Source: a virus. Taken from it: a stretch of 64,000 bases of DNA. A model generated the notes under the pieces. That model saw only the letters and a list, made by a program, of their open reading frames with translations, did not search any database and had not been told where the DNA came from. The stretch lies in IMG/VR virus record IMGVR_UViG_3300028827_000100, positions 1 to 64,000 of that record. One strand, given 5' to 3'. Every line of letters starts with the position of its first letter. The first letter of the stretch is position 1. Shown in pieces: positions 776-9,600 of this stretch. The translations under genes and the position numbers were made by a program.

Positions 776-1942
776 GTGAAGAAGGTGAGAAAGATATTAA
801 AGAGAAACAGAAGCAATGTTAATGTGATAGAGTTCGGTGACTGTCGTGAAATCCTGAAGCGATGGATTGACGAAGGGGTACAAGTTCATACTTGTGTAAC
901 ATCTCCACCTTACTACGGGTTAAGAGATTACGGCGTGGATGGACAGATAGGTATGGAAGAAACACCCGAAGAATATGTTGCTAACTTGGTTGAAATATTT
1001 CGTCTTGTTCGAAAGGTGTTGCGTGACGATGGGACGTTGTGGTTGAATTTGGGGGATAGTTATGCCTCCAATTTGTATATGAGAAATGCACATAAATACA
1101 AAGACAGAAAAGATGTTAGGGGTGGGGAGTATAAAATTAAAGCAAAAGATTTGATGGGTATCCCGTGGCGAGTAGCCTTCGCACTGCAAGCCGATGGCTG
1201 GTACTTGAGACAAGATATAATCTGGCACAAGCCAAATCCGATGCCAGAGGCTGTAGCTGATAGATGTACAAAGGCGCATGAATATATATTTCTGTTGAGT
1301 AAATCCAAGAAATATTATTATGACCAACTGGCTACACTGGAACCAGCTATTAGCGGAATTAAATCCCCTGGAAAGTCAAGAACAGATAGTTACCACAAAT
1401 TAATTTTACCGGATGGCACACCCCCGTTTCAGCAAGAAGTCAAATCTTGGGGAAGTATTGATGGTAATCGAAACAAACATTCTGTTTGGACTGTTACTCT
1501 AACCCCATACAAAGAGGCTCATTTTGCGACGTATCCACCGTCTTTGATAGAGCCGTGCATTCTTGCCGGAACATCCGAAAAAGGGTGTTGTCCGGTTTGT
1601 GGTTCTCCGTGGGAGCGCAAAATTAAAAGGAGAAAAACAGGTTCTGTCAAGCCAAGAACTTTTGGTAAATCTGGGAACAAAGACAGGACAGATATTGGAT
1701 GGGTATATGAAGGTTTGATTACAACAACCGTTGGTTGGAGACCTACTTGCAGTTGTAATGCGGGAGACCCCGTACCATGCATTGTTCTTGACCCATTTAT
1801 GGGGAGTGGTACAACAGCGGCGGTGGCTGTAAAGCATAATCGAAATTATATAGGTTGCGAACTGAACAAAGAATATAAAAAGTTACAAGATGAAAGAATT
1901 AAGTTGGCGAAAATCGACAAATATGGTTTTTTTTGGTTTTAA
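776..1942 (+). CDS. DNA methyltransferase (N4-cytosine/N6-adenine type)
   Basis: A 388-residue AdoMet-dependent DNA amino-methyltransferase. The catalytic motif IV is SPPYYG (about residues 43-48), near the N-terminus. The AdoMet-binding motif I, LDPFMGSGTT, lies near residue 340, so the order is the beta-class arrangement. SPPY favours N4-cytosine methylation, though N6-adenine cannot be excluded. Between them sit two cysteine pairs (CCPVC near residue 265 and CSC...C near 325) that could hold zinc. GTG 776 is used because AGGAGG ends 10 nt upstream. No restriction endonuclease is adjacent, so it is probably an orphan enzyme protecting phage DNA from host restriction or marking it. A second, different methyltransferase is at 8209. 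Confidence 0.93.
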   Translation: MKKVRKILKRNRSNVNVIEFGDCREILKRWIDEGVQVHTCVTSPPYYGLRDYGVDGQIGMEETPEEYVANLVEIFRLVRKVLRDDGTLWLNLGDSYASNLYMRNAHKYKDRKDVRGGEYKIKAKDLMGIPWRVAFALQADGWYLRQDIIWHKPNPMPEAVADRCTKAHEYIFLLSKSKKYYYDQLATLEPAISGIKSPGKSRTDSYHKLILPDGTPPFQQEVKSWGSIDGNRNKHSVWTVTLTPYKEAHFATYPPSLIEPCILAGTSEKGCCPVCGSPWERKIKRRKTGSVKPRTFGKSGNKDRTDIGWVYEGLITTTVGWRPTCSCNAGDPVPCIVLDPFMGSGTTAAVAVKHNRNYIGCELNKEYKKLQDERIKLAKIDKYGFFWF

Positions 1943-2968: not shown

Positions 2969-2998
2969 GTTTTATCCGGTATGAGAGGAGGAAAAAAA

Positions 2999-3862
2999 AT
3001 GTTTGAAGTGATTGAAAAACTGAATAAGGATTTGAAGGAAGCGGCAAAGAGACTTGAAGGGAGGGAATGCAGGTATCTCGTTGATGCATATTACATGATT
3101 CAAGAGTATAGAAAGTCTCTTGCAAATCAAATCAGGATGTCCGGCGATGAACCTAACGCCCTGATTGGCTGGATGTTTGAGCAGGCAAAGGTTGTTGAGA
3201 ACAACATCAAAAGAGCGTTAGATGTTTACACTGACGAAAATCCTGTTGGCGTCTGGATGAAATCAATCAAAGGCATTGGCCCTGTTCTTGCGGCAGGATT
3301 ACTTGCTCATATAGACATAGAGAAAGCACCTACTGTTGGGCACATCTGGTCATTTGCCGGACTTGACCCCACGAAGAAGTGGGGGAAGGGGCAGAAGAGA
3401 CCGTGGAATGCACGGTTGAAAACTTTATGCTGGAAGATAGGAGATTGTTTTGTTAAGGTCTCAAATCGCCCTGATGATTTGTATGGTAAGCTGTACAAGG
3501 AGAGAAAAGAATATGAAATCAGCAAAAACTTGAGAGGGGAATATGCAGAGCAGGCGGCAGAAATTTTGAGAACAAAAAATATAGGTCGTGACACGGAAGC
3601 GTACAAATATTATGTTCAGGGGCTTCTGCCGCCGGGCCATATAGACATGAGGGCAAGAAGATATGCTGTTAAACAGTTCCTTGCTGATTTACACTATGTA
3701 TGGTATAGATACCATTTTAAGAAGGAGCCGCCAAAACCGTATCCTATAGCTATACTTGGCCATGCTCATGAGAGGGAAAAGCCATTGTTTAGAACGATTG
3801 TTCCGGCAAAGCGAGCCATAGAAAAGGATAGTACCCGGAATAGGGAGCGAAAAAGTATATAG
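2999..3862 (+). CDS. Orphan IS110-like protein (C-terminal Tnp/HhH part only)
   Basis: A 287-residue protein. ATG 2999 is used because AGGAGG lies just upstream and inside the longer frame from 2981. Residues 88-107 form a helix-hairpin-helix (IKGIGPVLAAGLL). It is followed by AGLDP at 120-124 and a basic stretch GKGQKRPWNARLKTL, the arrangement of the C-terminal domain of IS110/IS116/IS902 recombinases (Pfam Transposase_20). The usual N-terminal DEDD RuvC-like domain is absent: residues 1-85 are helical. No Ser stands where the catalytic Ser of the Tnp domain is normally found after GLDP; TKKWGKG is there instead. A further helical tail (150-245) is not typical of IS110. No IS ends are seen. 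The repeat array at 3775-4054 starts within the last codons. Probably a domesticated nucleic-acid-binding protein; recombinase activity looks unlikely. Confidence 0.85.
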   Translation: MFEVIEKLNKDLKEAAKRLEGRECRYLVDAYYMIQEYRKSLANQIRMSGDEPNALIGWMFEQAKVVENNIKRALDVYTDENPVGVWMKSIKGIGPVLAAGLLAHIDIEKAPTVGHIWSFAGLDPTKKWGKGQKRPWNARLKTLCWKIGDCFVKVSNRPDDLYGKLYKERKEYEISKNLRGEYAEQAAEILRTKNIGRDTEAYKYYVQGLLPPGHIDMRARRYAVKQFLADLHYVWYRYHFKKEPPKPYPIAILGHAHEREKPLFRTIVPAKRAIEKDSTRNRERKSI

Positions 3863-4054
3863 CCATAAGGATGGATAGCACCAACTTGGTTGAGTGAGCC
3901 TTATGAATTGCGGATGGGTTTATGCCATGTGAGTAGAGTGAGCCATCGAAAAAGAGCGAGTCATGATTAGTGAGAGTACCAAAAAAGTTAGAACGGGTCA
4001 TATCCATTGAGAGTACCACAACACCCGTGCGAATTATGTGACGAGAGTGCACCA
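3775..4054 (+). repeat. Degenerate 18/36-nt repeat array downstream of the IS110-like gene
   Basis: 10-nt cores recur with mostly 8-nt variable segments between them. Cores start at 3775, 3809, 3827, 3845, 3856, 3874, 3892, 3918, 3936, 3954, 3972, 3991, 4009, 4027 and 4045. Two types tend to alternate. Type A ends in GCCA/GTCA (AAGCGAGCCA, TATATAGCCA, GAGCGAGTCA, GAACGGGTCA). Type B resembles GAGAGTACCA (GATAGTACCC, GATAGCACCA, GAGAGTACCA twice, GAGTGCACCA). From 3936 to 4054 the spacing is 18, 18, 19, 18, 18, 18. Segments after type A cores all begin with T. The array overlaps the 3' end of the IS110-like gene by about 90 bp and leaves 3863-4089 without a gene. It is not a CRISPR: the units are too short and degenerate. 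It may be a transcribed RNA, perhaps guide-like, or a binding array for the adjacent protein. Confidence 0.7.
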
Positions 4055-4089
4055 AAATTCAAATTAAAACGAAAGGGGGTGATGATTGC

Positions 4090-5570: not shown

Positions 5571-5697
5571 CGTAAAGAAAGCAACATCTGTTGTCATTGT
5601 AACGGAGCCGGAGTATACGAACGAACCTTGGGAGCCGGACTCCAGCGAAAGAATCTGCCCGTTCTGCGATGGGACGGGGGTGATGGAGGATGAGTGA
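5563..5697 (+). CDS. 44-residue protein with CPFCDGTG motif
   Basis: Starts at ATG 5563, overlapping the previous gene by 8 nt, with AGGAAG upstream; stops at TGA 5695-5697, overlapping the next ATG. It contains ICPFCDGTGVM near the C-terminus, a CxxCxGxG half-motif like one repeat of the DnaJ zinc finger. With only one such motif, zinc binding would need dimerisation. The role is unknown. Confidence 0.6.
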   Translation: MPNVKKATSVVIVTEPEYTNEPWEPDSSERICPFCDGTGVMEDE

Positions 5698-6026
5698 TGA
5701 CCTTTGACGAATACCAGAAGAAAGCAAGACAAGTCGCAATCTATCCCAACAAGGGAAACAACATCATCTATCCAGCACTGGGTCTTTGCGGCGAGGCTGG
5801 AGAAGTTGCGGAGAAAATCAAAAAAATCCTTAGAGATAAGGGTGGCAATGTAAGTATAGAGGATAGAGAATCTATTGCCTACGAGTTGGGAGATGCCCTG
5901 TGGTACATATATGCACTGGCAGACGAGCTGGAACTATCCTTAGATGACATTGCAAGGATGAACCTTGAAAAACTGTTCTCTCGAAAAAGGAGAGGCAAAC
6001 TACAGGGAGATGGTGATGACAGGTAA
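5697..6026 (+). CDS. MazG-like nucleotide pyrophosphohydrolase
   Basis: A 109-residue single-domain protein of the all-alpha NTP pyrophosphatase superfamily. It has GLCGEAGEVAEKIKK (the ExxE helix) and about 40 residues later YELGDALWYIYALAD (the ExxD helix); these four acidic residues coordinate Mg2+. These enzymes hydrolyse (d)NTPs to monophosphates. Phage versions are thought to adjust nucleotide pools or host (p)ppGpp signalling; the substrate here is not determinable. ATG 5697 is preferred because GGAGG lies 6 nt upstream. Confidence 0.9.
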   Translation: MTFDEYQKKARQVAIYPNKGNNIIYPALGLCGEAGEVAEKIKKILRDKGGNVSIEDRESIAYELGDALWYIYALADELELSLDDIARMNLEKLFSRKRRGKLQGDGDDR

Positions 6027-6264: not shown

Positions 6265-6330
6265 CTATAAGTTATAGTCTTATATCTACAATAAATAGTC
6301 GAAAAGTCTTAAATGTGATATAATATATAT
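6265..6330 (+). promoter_or_regulatory. Extended -10 promoter with palindromic site upstream
   Basis: TGATATAAT (6316-6324) is a perfect extended -10 element (TG-N-TATAAT). The -35 position 17 bp upstream (TAGTCG) matches TTGACA poorly, which is normal for extended -10 promoters. Upstream lies CTATAA-G-TTATAG (6265-6277), a perfect inverted repeat and a candidate operator. The predicted leader contains CCGGG/CCCGG, a weak hairpin before the AGGAGG at about 6366. This gives the 6379 gene its own promoter. Confidence 0.7.
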
Positions 6331-6378
6331 GCCGGGGGTGGAGTGTCCCGGTAATAAAAAAAAGAAGGAGGTATTTTT

Positions 6379-6720
6379 ATGCTGGGTCCAGTTGCCATTC
6401 TTAATTCCCCAATTCTGACAGGGTGGGGTGTTTATTCATGGACACCCCTCACAGTGGAGGAGGCCAAAGAGCTCATAGCCAAGCATGGTTATGAGTCAGC
6501 GGTGGGGCATGAGGCTACCGCCGCTTTTCTCTCACGCCTCTTGGGGGTTGAAATCCCAATGAGGCGAATCCGTGTCGCCATGGGTGGCGATACGGAGGGG
6601 GAATTTCTTCACGCAATCGTCTTGCGGTTGCGTGAGAGACTCCCGGAGGGGAAGGTCCTCTCCGAAGAGGAGATGGCCAAGGTCGAGTATGACCTTGGTT
6701 ATCTCGAATGGGGGATGTAA
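6379..6720 (+). CDS. DUF1874 / AcrIII-1-type ring nuclease (anti-CRISPR)
   Basis: A 113-residue protein matching the DUF1874 family (AcrIII-1/Crn2). Members degrade cyclic tetra-adenylate and so switch off type III CRISPR immunity. Visible family marks: LNSPILTGWG at the N-terminus (family LANAFS-like strand); SAVGHEATAAFLSRLLG with His44 matching the catalytic His of SIRV1 gp29; IPMRR; and RLPEGKVLSEEEM near residues 88-99. It sits between its own extended -10 promoter and a strong terminator, with AGGAGG 7 nt upstream. Third-position G/C is clearly higher than in its neighbours (many CTC, CCC, ATC codons), which suggests recent acquisition. Family members also occur in bacteria and plasmids. 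The anti-CRISPR role is inferred from family. Confidence 0.85.
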   Translation: MLGPVAILNSPILTGWGVYSWTPLTVEEAKELIAKHGYESAVGHEATAAFLSRLLGVEIPMRRIRVAMGGDTEGEFLHAIVLRLRERLPEGKVLSEEEMAKVEYDLGYLEWGM

Positions 6721-6742
6721 TCCCCCTCCTCAATCCACCCGC

Positions 6743-6768
6743 AAGCCCCGCTTCGGCGGGGCTTTTTT
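6743..6768 (+). terminator. Rho-independent terminator after ring-nuclease gene
   Basis: AAGCCCCGC-TTCG-GCGGGGCTT followed by TTTT: a stem of nine or more base pairs with a UUCG tetraloop. Strong canonical intrinsic terminator, 22 nt after the stop codon of the ring nuclease. Confidence 0.95.
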
Positions 6769-6807
6769 ATTGCGCAAAACTAAACTAACTTTTAGGAGGT
6801 AAAAAAA

Positions 6808-7532: not shown

Positions 7533-7616
7533 GTCGGGGTGGTGGAATTGGCAGACACGGAGGTCTCAAAAATCTCTGGCTTGTCCGTGCGGGTTCGAGT
7601 CCCGCTCCCGACACCA
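7533..7616 (+). tRNA. tRNA-Leu(CAA)
   Basis: Acceptor GTCGGGG (7533-7539) pairs with TCCCGAC. The D-arm is TGGTGGAATTGGCAGAC. The anticodon stem GAGGT/ATCTC closes the loop CTCAAAA, giving anticodon CAA, which reads TTG. A short class II variable arm is present. The T-arm GCGGG-TTCGAGT-CCCGC is perfect. Discriminator A and an encoded CCA end it. TTG is frequent in the phage genes, so the tRNA probably supports late translation or replaces a degraded host tRNA. Confidence 0.93.
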
Positions 7617-7996: not shown

Positions 7997-8198
7997 CGTA
8001 ATGGGAATTTTACTTGGCAGTGTGATGTTTGTGTTTTTTATAGAGAACATTTCGGACTTTCTGTCTTACAGGGTTGAGTCGAGAAGGTGCGGCCCTTATT
8101 TGAAAAGAGAATATGTTGCAATATCAAAGAAGCATATGTGGAATGCGGTACTTTATCTGCTACTCGCAATTGCCGTGTTTGTTGCGGTTTTTGTTTAG
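7983..8198 (+). CDS. Small membrane protein
   Basis: 71 residues from ATG 7983 (GGGGGAGGTG upstream). Two hydrophobic segments: about residues 5-22 (VMGILLGSVMFVFF) and the last 18 (AVLYLLLAIAVFVAVFV), with a basic link (SRRCGPYLKRE). Probably an inner-membrane protein. No family recognised; superinfection-exclusion and host-takeover roles are both possible but unsupported. Confidence 0.75.
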   Translation: MNGFDVMGILLGSVMFVFFIENISDFLSYRVESRRCGPYLKREYVAISKKHMWNAVLYLLLAIAVFVAVFV

Positions 8199-8208
8199 GA
8201 GGAAAAGG

Positions 8209-9600
8209 GTGAGTGTTGAATTGTTTACTACTCAAGATTCGATAGCATGGCTTTTGCTTGGCAAATGTGAAAGGGCTATGGGGGAAATGCCAGACAACTA
8301 TGTGGATACTATTATTACTGACCCGCCTTATGGCCTTCAGTTTATGGGGAAGAAGTGGGATTATGATGTGCCAAGTGTAGAGACGTTTCAGGAAATGTTG
8401 AGGGTGGCAAAGCCCGGCGCAACATTGCTTTGCTTTGCGGGCGCAAGAACTCAACATCGGATGGCAGTGAATATTGAAGATGCGGGATGGGAACTGAAGG
8501 ATTGCATTATGTGGATTTACGGATCAGGATTCCCGAAGGCGACAGATATAAGTAAACAGATTGACAGGAAATTTGGGGTTAAGGGGGAAGTTATGGACAA
8601 GAGAAAGGGTTGTAGTCGAAAGCGTATTTATAATGTGGCGGTATATTCTGGATCATCAGGCAGGGAATATGAGATAGTTGCTCCTACCACCCCCGAAGCA
8701 AAACTCTGGAACGGCTGGAAATCACATGGGCTCAAACCTGCCTATGAACCTATTCTCGTAGCAATGAAACCAAACGAAGGTAGCTATGCACAGAACGCAT
8801 TGAAATGGGGTGTGAGCGGGTTGAATATAGATGGTGCGAGGATAGAATTAAAGGGTATTGAAGAACATACTACGGAAGCAAAAAGCGGTCTTGGTAAAAG
8901 GATATATGGAAAATATAAAAATAAACCAACCATAACATCTGATTTGCCGAGATATAACATTAAAGGTCGCTACCCCGCCAATATCATCCTTGACGAAGAA
9001 GCCGCAAGAATGCTGGATGAACAAATAGGCGACCAAGGCGGTGCATCACGATTCTTCTATGTTGCCAAGGCATCAAGGGCAGAAAGAAACATGGGGCTTG
9101 AAGACTTACCCGCCAAAGAGAGGGCCAATATCAATAAAATGATGGGAAGTGATGACAACAGTATGCTTACAGGTAGTGGAAATAAGCGGAATAATAAATT
9201 GCAAAACTTCCACCCCACTGTCAAACCTCTGGAGTTAATAGTATATTTGTGCAACCTTACCAAAACTCCATTTGGCGGGGTTGTACTTGATCCATATATG
9301 GGAAGTGGCACAACCGGAATTGCGTGCCTCATTACAGGTAGGGATTTTATTGGTATTGAAATGAAGCCTGATTATTATAAAGTGGCTTGTGAGAGAAGTA
9401 AGTATGTGAGTAGAAAGTTGCTCAAAATCAAACATAATCCTTTTGAACTCATATCTAATCTGGATGATTCAAATGAACTTGAAAGGTTGATTAAGAATTA
9501 TTCAAGGTTTGTGTGTGGGCACAAACTTAACAATCCAAAATTGAATAAAAGTAAGGGGGGTGAAAAAAACAGGCAAGGTGATACACTTTTTAAATATTGA
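8209..9600 (+). CDS. DNA methyltransferase (beta class, DPPY)
   Basis: About 463 residues from GTG 8209, chosen for AGGAGG at 8197-8202. Motif IV TDPPYG lies at residues 37-42. Motif I, LDPYMGSGTTG, lies near residue 360, followed by FIGIEMKPDYYKVA. The long central part includes a GGASRFFYVAKASRAERN segment seen in phage site-specific methyltransferases. DPPY fits N6-adenine modification, N4-cytosine being less likely. Organisation differs from the enzyme at 776 (SPPY), so the phage probably modifies two sequences. The C-terminal tail after residue 400 is Lys/Asn-rich and may be a recognition or accessory region. No restriction partner is seen. Confidence 0.93.
   Translation: MSVELFTTQDSIAWLLLGKCERAMGEMPDNYVDTIITDPPYGLQFMGKKWDYDVPSVETFQEMLRVAKPGATLLCFAGARTQHRMAVNIEDAGWELKDCIMWIYGSGFPKATDISKQIDRKFGVKGEVMDKRKGCSRKRIYNVAVYSGSSGREYEIVAPTTPEAKLWNGWKSHGLKPAYEPILVAMKPNEGSYAQNALKWGVSGLNIDGARIELKGIEEHTTEAKSGLGKRIYGKYKNKPTITSDLPRYNIKGRYPANIILDEEAARMLDEQIGDQGGASRFFYVAKASRAERNMGLEDLPAKERANINKMMGSDDNSMLTGSGNKRNNKLQNFHPTVKPLELIVYLCNLTKTPFGGVVLDPYMGSGTTGIACLITGRDFIGIEMKPDYYKVACERSKYVSRKLLKIKHNPFELISNLDDSNELERLIKNYSRFVCGHKLNNPKLNKSKGGEKNRQGDTLFKY

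Follow-up and report, generated by a model that had tools for sequence, protein, structure and literature searches.

The locus examined here raises two questions: whether a short gene in a virus record encodes a ring nuclease of the AcrIII-1 family, whose members break down cyclic tetra-adenylate (cA4), the alarm signal in bacterial type III CRISPR immunity, and how a gene of this kind is packaged for expression by its carrier. The window, that is, the whole stretch of DNA analyzed, covers the opening 64 kb of a virus record of 105,878 bp. This record encodes a terminase, portal, major head protein, and baseplate wedge, as well as its own replisome (DNA polymerase, helicases, clamp loader, and a UvsX-like recombinase). 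Because head, baseplate, and replication genes are present together, we assign the record to an uncultured tailed phage. No phage sequence matched the first 25 kb by megablast. As a guide to the host, the head and portal proteins pointed to nothing but Virus Rctr197k, which comes from a DAMO/AAA enrichment culture.

The gene encodes a DUF1874 protein

The gene and its ribosome-binding site are located as follows.
6379..6720, + strand: acrIII-1/DUF1874 ring nuclease coding sequence, ATG start, 113 aa; N9, S10, H44, R63, R87, and E90 conserved
6365..6372, + strand: Shine–Dalgarno AAGGAGGT of acrIII-1, read from the sequence and graded good

The first-pass annotation had recognized the DUF1874 family from three motifs, and LNSPILTGWG, GHEATAAFLSRLLG including His44, and RLPEGKVL are all found in the 113-aa ORF. 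The family assignment was borne out by a profile search, in which PF08960 (STIV_B116-like, DUF1874) was matched with an E value of 8.2e-25 and 87.3 bits, versus a curated cut-off of 26 bits. The match extends over residues 5 to 105 of the protein and positions 1 to 100 of the 101 in the profile. PF08960 is the only Pfam family that matches the protein, which also matched PHROG 5063; a search of NCBIfam gave no match. Only this one PF08960 gene is present in the whole 105,878-bp record.

Active site and fold

N9, S40, G43, H44, R63, R87, and E90 are invariant across a 42-member family alignment, and every one of these family-invariant residues is kept in the phage protein. The residues of the cA4 site (N9, S10, R63, R87, and E90) are likewise present. 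R87 and E90 occupy the positions of R85 and E88 in SIRV1 gp29, both of which are reportedly important in that enzyme (a 2020 Nature paper). When the family profile was aligned to solved chains, the column of His44 held Ala in 6SCF and His495 in Csx1-Crn2; 6SCF is a SIRV1 gp29 variant carrying Ala, and the wild-type entry 2X4I has His47 in the same column. Ser10 aligned with Ser452 of Csx1-Crn2 in the same comparison. Mutation of these counterparts is informative: in Csx1-Crn2, cA4 cleavage is lost in the H495A variant, and S452Y leaves cA4 binding severely impaired (PMC7293037), and the H47A variant of SIRV1 gp29 is inactive (PMC7213978).

An AlphaFold2 model of the monomer built on the 42-row alignment reached a pLDDT of 92.5 and replaced a model from the phage protein sequence alone, which was useless (pLDDT of 49.7). 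The model superimposes on AFV3-109 (2J6B; Z 14.5, 2.3 Å, 102 residues), Crn2 (8Y7F; Z 14.2, 2.0 Å, 108 residues), STIV B116 (Z 13.9), and SIRV1 gp29 in both its entries (2X4I, Z 12.1; 6SCF, Z 11.9, 3.6 Å, 106 residues). The next, unrelated fold scores only Z 3.2, versus 11.9 to 14.5 over 97 to 108 residues for the solved AcrIII-1 and Crn2 structures. AFV3-109 also matches the phage protein in sequence (E 9e-17). Judged from its sequence and modeled fold, ORF 6379-6720 is a convincing and quite ordinary AcrIII-1 that has all the testable defining features, and it is predicted to cleave cA4.

A promoter–leader with two further copies in the phage genome

The region upstream of the gene contains four elements.
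6266..6283, + strand: TATAAGTTATAGTCTTAT, an imperfect palindrome that lies 53 nt before the -10; putative regulator site
6316..6324, + strand: -10 region TGATATAAT, by itself not above chance
6319..6338, + strand: core TATAATAYATATGCCGGGGG, promoter and start of the leader; also at record positions 80537 and 95120
6330..6353, + strand: 8-bp hairpin in the 5′ leader, about -13 kcal/mol; also in the copy at 80537, not in the copy at 95120

Transcription of the gene had previously been attributed to an extended -10 promoter. This element was rejected as the conserved promoter feature: the motif TGNTATAAT at 6316-6324 occurs twice in the window, versus 3.0 occurrences expected by chance, and its TG is not conserved in the two other copies of the promoter–leader. 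The promoter is believable because the 20-nt core, which runs across the -10 into the beginning of the leader, recurs twice elsewhere in the record, giving three copies (6319, 80537, and 95120) with one C/T difference. In two of the three, the leader folds into a hairpin of 8 to 10 bp. The copy at 80537 precedes a 162-aa gene (80587-81075) without an assigned function. The copy at 95120 precedes gene 95198-95722, which is flanked by the clamp loader and UvsX-like genes and has a weak match to a UvsY-like recombination mediator (E 0.0036). Aligning the copies revealed additional sequence in common upstream of the core. The promoter of this UvsY-like gene also has the palindrome in common with acrIII-1: sites at 6266 and at record 95066 (spacing 54) share the imperfect palindrome TATWAGTWATAGWCTTAT, 53 to 54 nt before the -10, although the pattern was derived from these two sites themselves and its count is no test. 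A search of IMG/VR with the leader core gave no match.

As read from these repeats, the promoter–leader is a phage-native family of three copies. No -35 consensus is common to them, which makes it plausible that a phage-encoded or phage-modified activator acts at this promoter family. Since the promoter–leader is shared with the UvsY-like gene of the replication and recombination block, early expression of the ring nuclease, together with the replication genes, is supported, not proven; both the start of the mRNA and its timing are predictions.

The terminator lies in an exactly repeated module

Two features follow the coding sequence.
6743..6767, + strand: intrinsic terminator (GCCCCGC-TTCG-GCGGGGC plus T tract), hairpin 6743-6764
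6717..6807, + strand: 91-bp module comprising the CDS end, the terminator, and the Shine–Dalgarno sequence of the next gene; equal to record 88908-88998

The terminator hairpin has a 9-bp stem and a TTCG loop (dG -17.9) and is followed by a T tract. No other perfect stem of this class occurs in the window, and 20 shuffles produced none as strong. Together with the shared promoter–leader, the terminator upholds the first-pass description of a stand-alone gene flanked by a promoter and a strong terminator. Rfam matches to rsmX and asX2 over the terminator scored far below the gathering scores, and neither RNA was retained as a candidate.

The two copies of the module are identical at 91 of 91 positions and lie 82 kb apart. 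The record contains no longer exact repeat, and assembly could have joined through this one. The genes 5′ of both copies have foreign-like GC3, and the genes 3′ of both are unrelated. The module core had no match in IMG/VR, and in named phages its matches were all weak and centered on the common terminator core. Preceding the second copy is a Lys-rich 108-aa ORF (record 88585-88911; L003:4585-4911) with KKDAKKKDAKK repeats and a GC3 of 0.69. This ORF carries its own consensus promoter, TTGACA-N17-TAAAAT, gave no substantial family match and no relative in IMG/VR, and is a candidate second moron. Either the two cassettes entered by the same route, or the 3′ end was copied between them by recombination. 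The repeated module, with two copies in one genome, suggests that foreign genes are acquired by a shared route. That it marks a cassette mechanism for taking in and expressing defense-related morons, with the 108-aa product as another host-takeover or anti-defense protein, is a tentative idea that we think rather unlikely to be correct.

Nucleotide composition

The GC content of acrIII-1 (0.55) is the highest among the 113 + strand genes of the whole record (z 4.3), and its GC3 (0.60) is the second highest (z 3.0); the single gene above it in GC3 is very probably the 108-aa ORF. The other 112 + strand genes have a GC of 0.407 ± 0.033 and a GC3 of 0.406 ± 0.065. Encoding the same protein with phage codon usage yields a GC3 of 0.42 ± 0.04, and 0 of 5000 simulations reached 0.60, in agreement with the earlier remark that third-position G/C is distinctly raised. 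A general GC3 excess of viral acrIII-1 genes was discarded as too small (mean +0.04, 23 of 37 positive, with related rows that are not independent). The tests applied here support the family assignment, the catalytic residue, the fold, the alien composition, and the stand-alone transcription unit.

Relatives in phages and in type III CRISPR loci

Homologues from named phages are up to 45% identical to the phage protein. A single-sequence scan of IMG/VR with the ring nuclease found no relative, whereas an alignment of four members retrieved 39 relatives there, and a search of genomes gave 23. Cellular homologues that are close in sequence sit in type III CRISPR loci, several of them beside CARF effectors. 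A Chromatiaceae homologue (L060) is accompanied by Cas10, RAMP, and a Csx1-CARF-like gene, and others by Cas6 (L065), by Cas_APE2256 (L064), or by a Cas_NE0113 gene and a weakly Cas10-like gene (L069). In three further gammaproteobacteria, Cas10 lies 5 to 8 kb from the homologue, and a Planctomycete homologue likewise lies in a type III locus. A Planctomycete-related ORF of 690 aa (L127:5091-7163; G479 C12) carries the DUF1874 domain at its C-terminal end, and a Cas10-like gene is found about 5 kb from it on the contig. Its N-terminal part had no Pfam match; the ORF is possibly a Crn2 fusion other than Marinitoga Csx1-Crn2, or a read-through frame.

The PADLOC profile PDLC01147, labeled Csx16, matches every DUF1874 protein tried, and its best matches are those in type III loci. 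The phage protein scores 101.6 bits, compared with 120 to 185 for members next to CRISPR genes, 118 for the Fervidicola protein, 114 for viral contig L017, 66 to 92 for phage and archaeal virus members, and 63 for one clostridial member. The Csx16 label thus appears to cover Crn2-like proteins, and the name may mislead annotation of Crn2 and AcrIII-1. Some trees put the phage gene among cellular Crn2, and another row set places it at the base of or next to the YddF/phage clade (87/84). These trees rest on about 110 columns, the position shifts with the row set, and AU tests reject no placement. An origin from cellular Crn2 is therefore not claimed.

Genomic neighborhood

No Cas10 was found in the 105.9-kb record and no cas genes among the acrIII-1 neighbors tested, so that acrIII-1 lies in a virus record outside any cas locus. 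Among the fetched relatives of a flanking gene, none had the flanks seen here. About 2.3 kb from the ring nuclease gene is a TIGR-Tas locus, in which a 293-aa gene (window 2981-3862, + strand) matches the TIGR-Tas system RNA-guided endonuclease NCBIfam NF052498 with 216 bits versus a cut-off of 100. It is followed at window 3889-4061 (+ strand) by degenerate repeats with a 36 to 37 nt period, at 3953, 3990, and 4026 and also at 3889 and 3933. By sequence these look like a short TIGR array, with a period that fits the 36-nt size of tigRNAs (PMC12045711). Two N6/N4 DNA methyltransferase genes (PF01555; window 776-1942 and 8113-9600) flank the ring nuclease, and both are likely anti-restriction enzymes. 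With its methyltransferases, TIGR-Tas, and acrIII-1, the first 10 kb looks like a counter-defense region. A MazG-like pyrophosphohydrolase gene (PF03819, window 5694-6026) lies just upstream of the cassette, and a tRNA-Leu (CAA) gene is located in the accessory region at window 7533-7616.

Discussion

Taken together, we consider it highly likely that this gene is a phage acrIII-1 that would counter type III CRISPR immunity by cleaving cA4, and that it is carried as a moron under an early, phage-native promoter. Early in infection, transcription would start from the promoter shared with the replication and recombination gene. The protein, a dimer by analogy with its family, would bind the cyclic tetra-adenylate produced by host Cas10, and His44 would cut the cA4 ring into two linear A2>P molecules; with cA4 lost, Csx1/Csm6-type CARF effectors would remain off. 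As a lone foreign gene with a promoter and a terminator of its own, acrIII-1 would fit the definition of a moron.

The same enzyme could have been taken from a host type III locus, as a Crn2, and serve a role apart from countering immunity in lytic infection, such as damping cA4 toxicity so that the infected cell survives longer. In keeping with such a capture, the PDLC01147 score of 101.6 bits, although below the 120 to 185 of CRISPR-adjacent members, exceeds the 66 to 92 of other phage and virus members; some trees group the gene with cellular Crn2; and its composition is alien and GC-rich. However, the tree placement changes with the row set, no placement being supported or rejected, and the record was found to lack Cas10, and we regard a captured Crn2 with another role as improbable. 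Several viral homologues are labeled DNA-binding proteins in public records, which would accord with a different substrate or a DNA-binding role, but all cA4-site residues are kept, and the family members that have been assayed, SIRV1 gp29 and Csx1-Crn2, cleave cA4 rapidly, making this very improbable. It is marginally less probable still that the gene is a useless passenger, present by chance in one assembled genome. The single-sequence IMG/VR scan did return no close relative, and no relative turned up with matching flanks; against this, the frame is open and retains all catalytic residues, a good ribosome-binding site, a strong terminator, and a promoter–leader of the shared phage type.

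Anti-type III activity by cA4 cleavage, the preferred reading, places the gene in a known kind, as AcrIII-1 has already been reported in 36 of 28,114 phage genomes (PMC12409355). What is new is its packaging, in which a phage-native promoter–leader family is combined with an exact 3′ module held in common with a second foreign-looking gene. These shared elements provide a handle for finding further anti-defense genes in this group of phages, through their expression signals instead of their sequence. The locus also contributes an AcrIII-1 from a bacterial phage, one that shares only about 50% identity with anything found and falls clearly into neither the phage nor the cellular Crn2 group. It bears on the direction in which the enzyme has moved between viruses and hosts, for which a virus-first origin has been argued (PMC12409355).

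Comparison with known systems

Among characterized relatives, SIRV1 gp29 (6SCF and 2X4I) has the PF08960 domain, the same fold (Z 11.9-12.1), and H47, R66, R85, and E88 in place of phage H44, R63, R87, and E90. It differs in being an archaeal virus protein of about 20% identity, and the phage protein has five extra residues around positions 69 to 78. AFV3-109 (2J6B) is the closest solved structure in both sequence (36-40% identity) and fold (Z 14.5), although it comes from an archaeal filamentous virus. Crn2, whether in Marinitoga Csx1-Crn2 (8Y7F) or stand-alone, has the same domain and active site (Z 14.2) but is cellular and encoded within type III CRISPR loci, whereas the phage gene stands alone in a virus. 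Proteins from Hydrogenobaculum phage 1 (DUF1874), a Fusobacterium phage (YddF-like), Fervidicola, and Bacillota MAGs are full-length homologues of 38-52% identity with the same invariant residues, and their genes occur in other neighborhoods. Like phage morons, the locus is a lone, foreign-looking gene with its own predicted promoter and terminator; unlike them, its promoter copies a phage-native family, and its 3′ module is an exact duplicate that another foreign-looking gene also carries.
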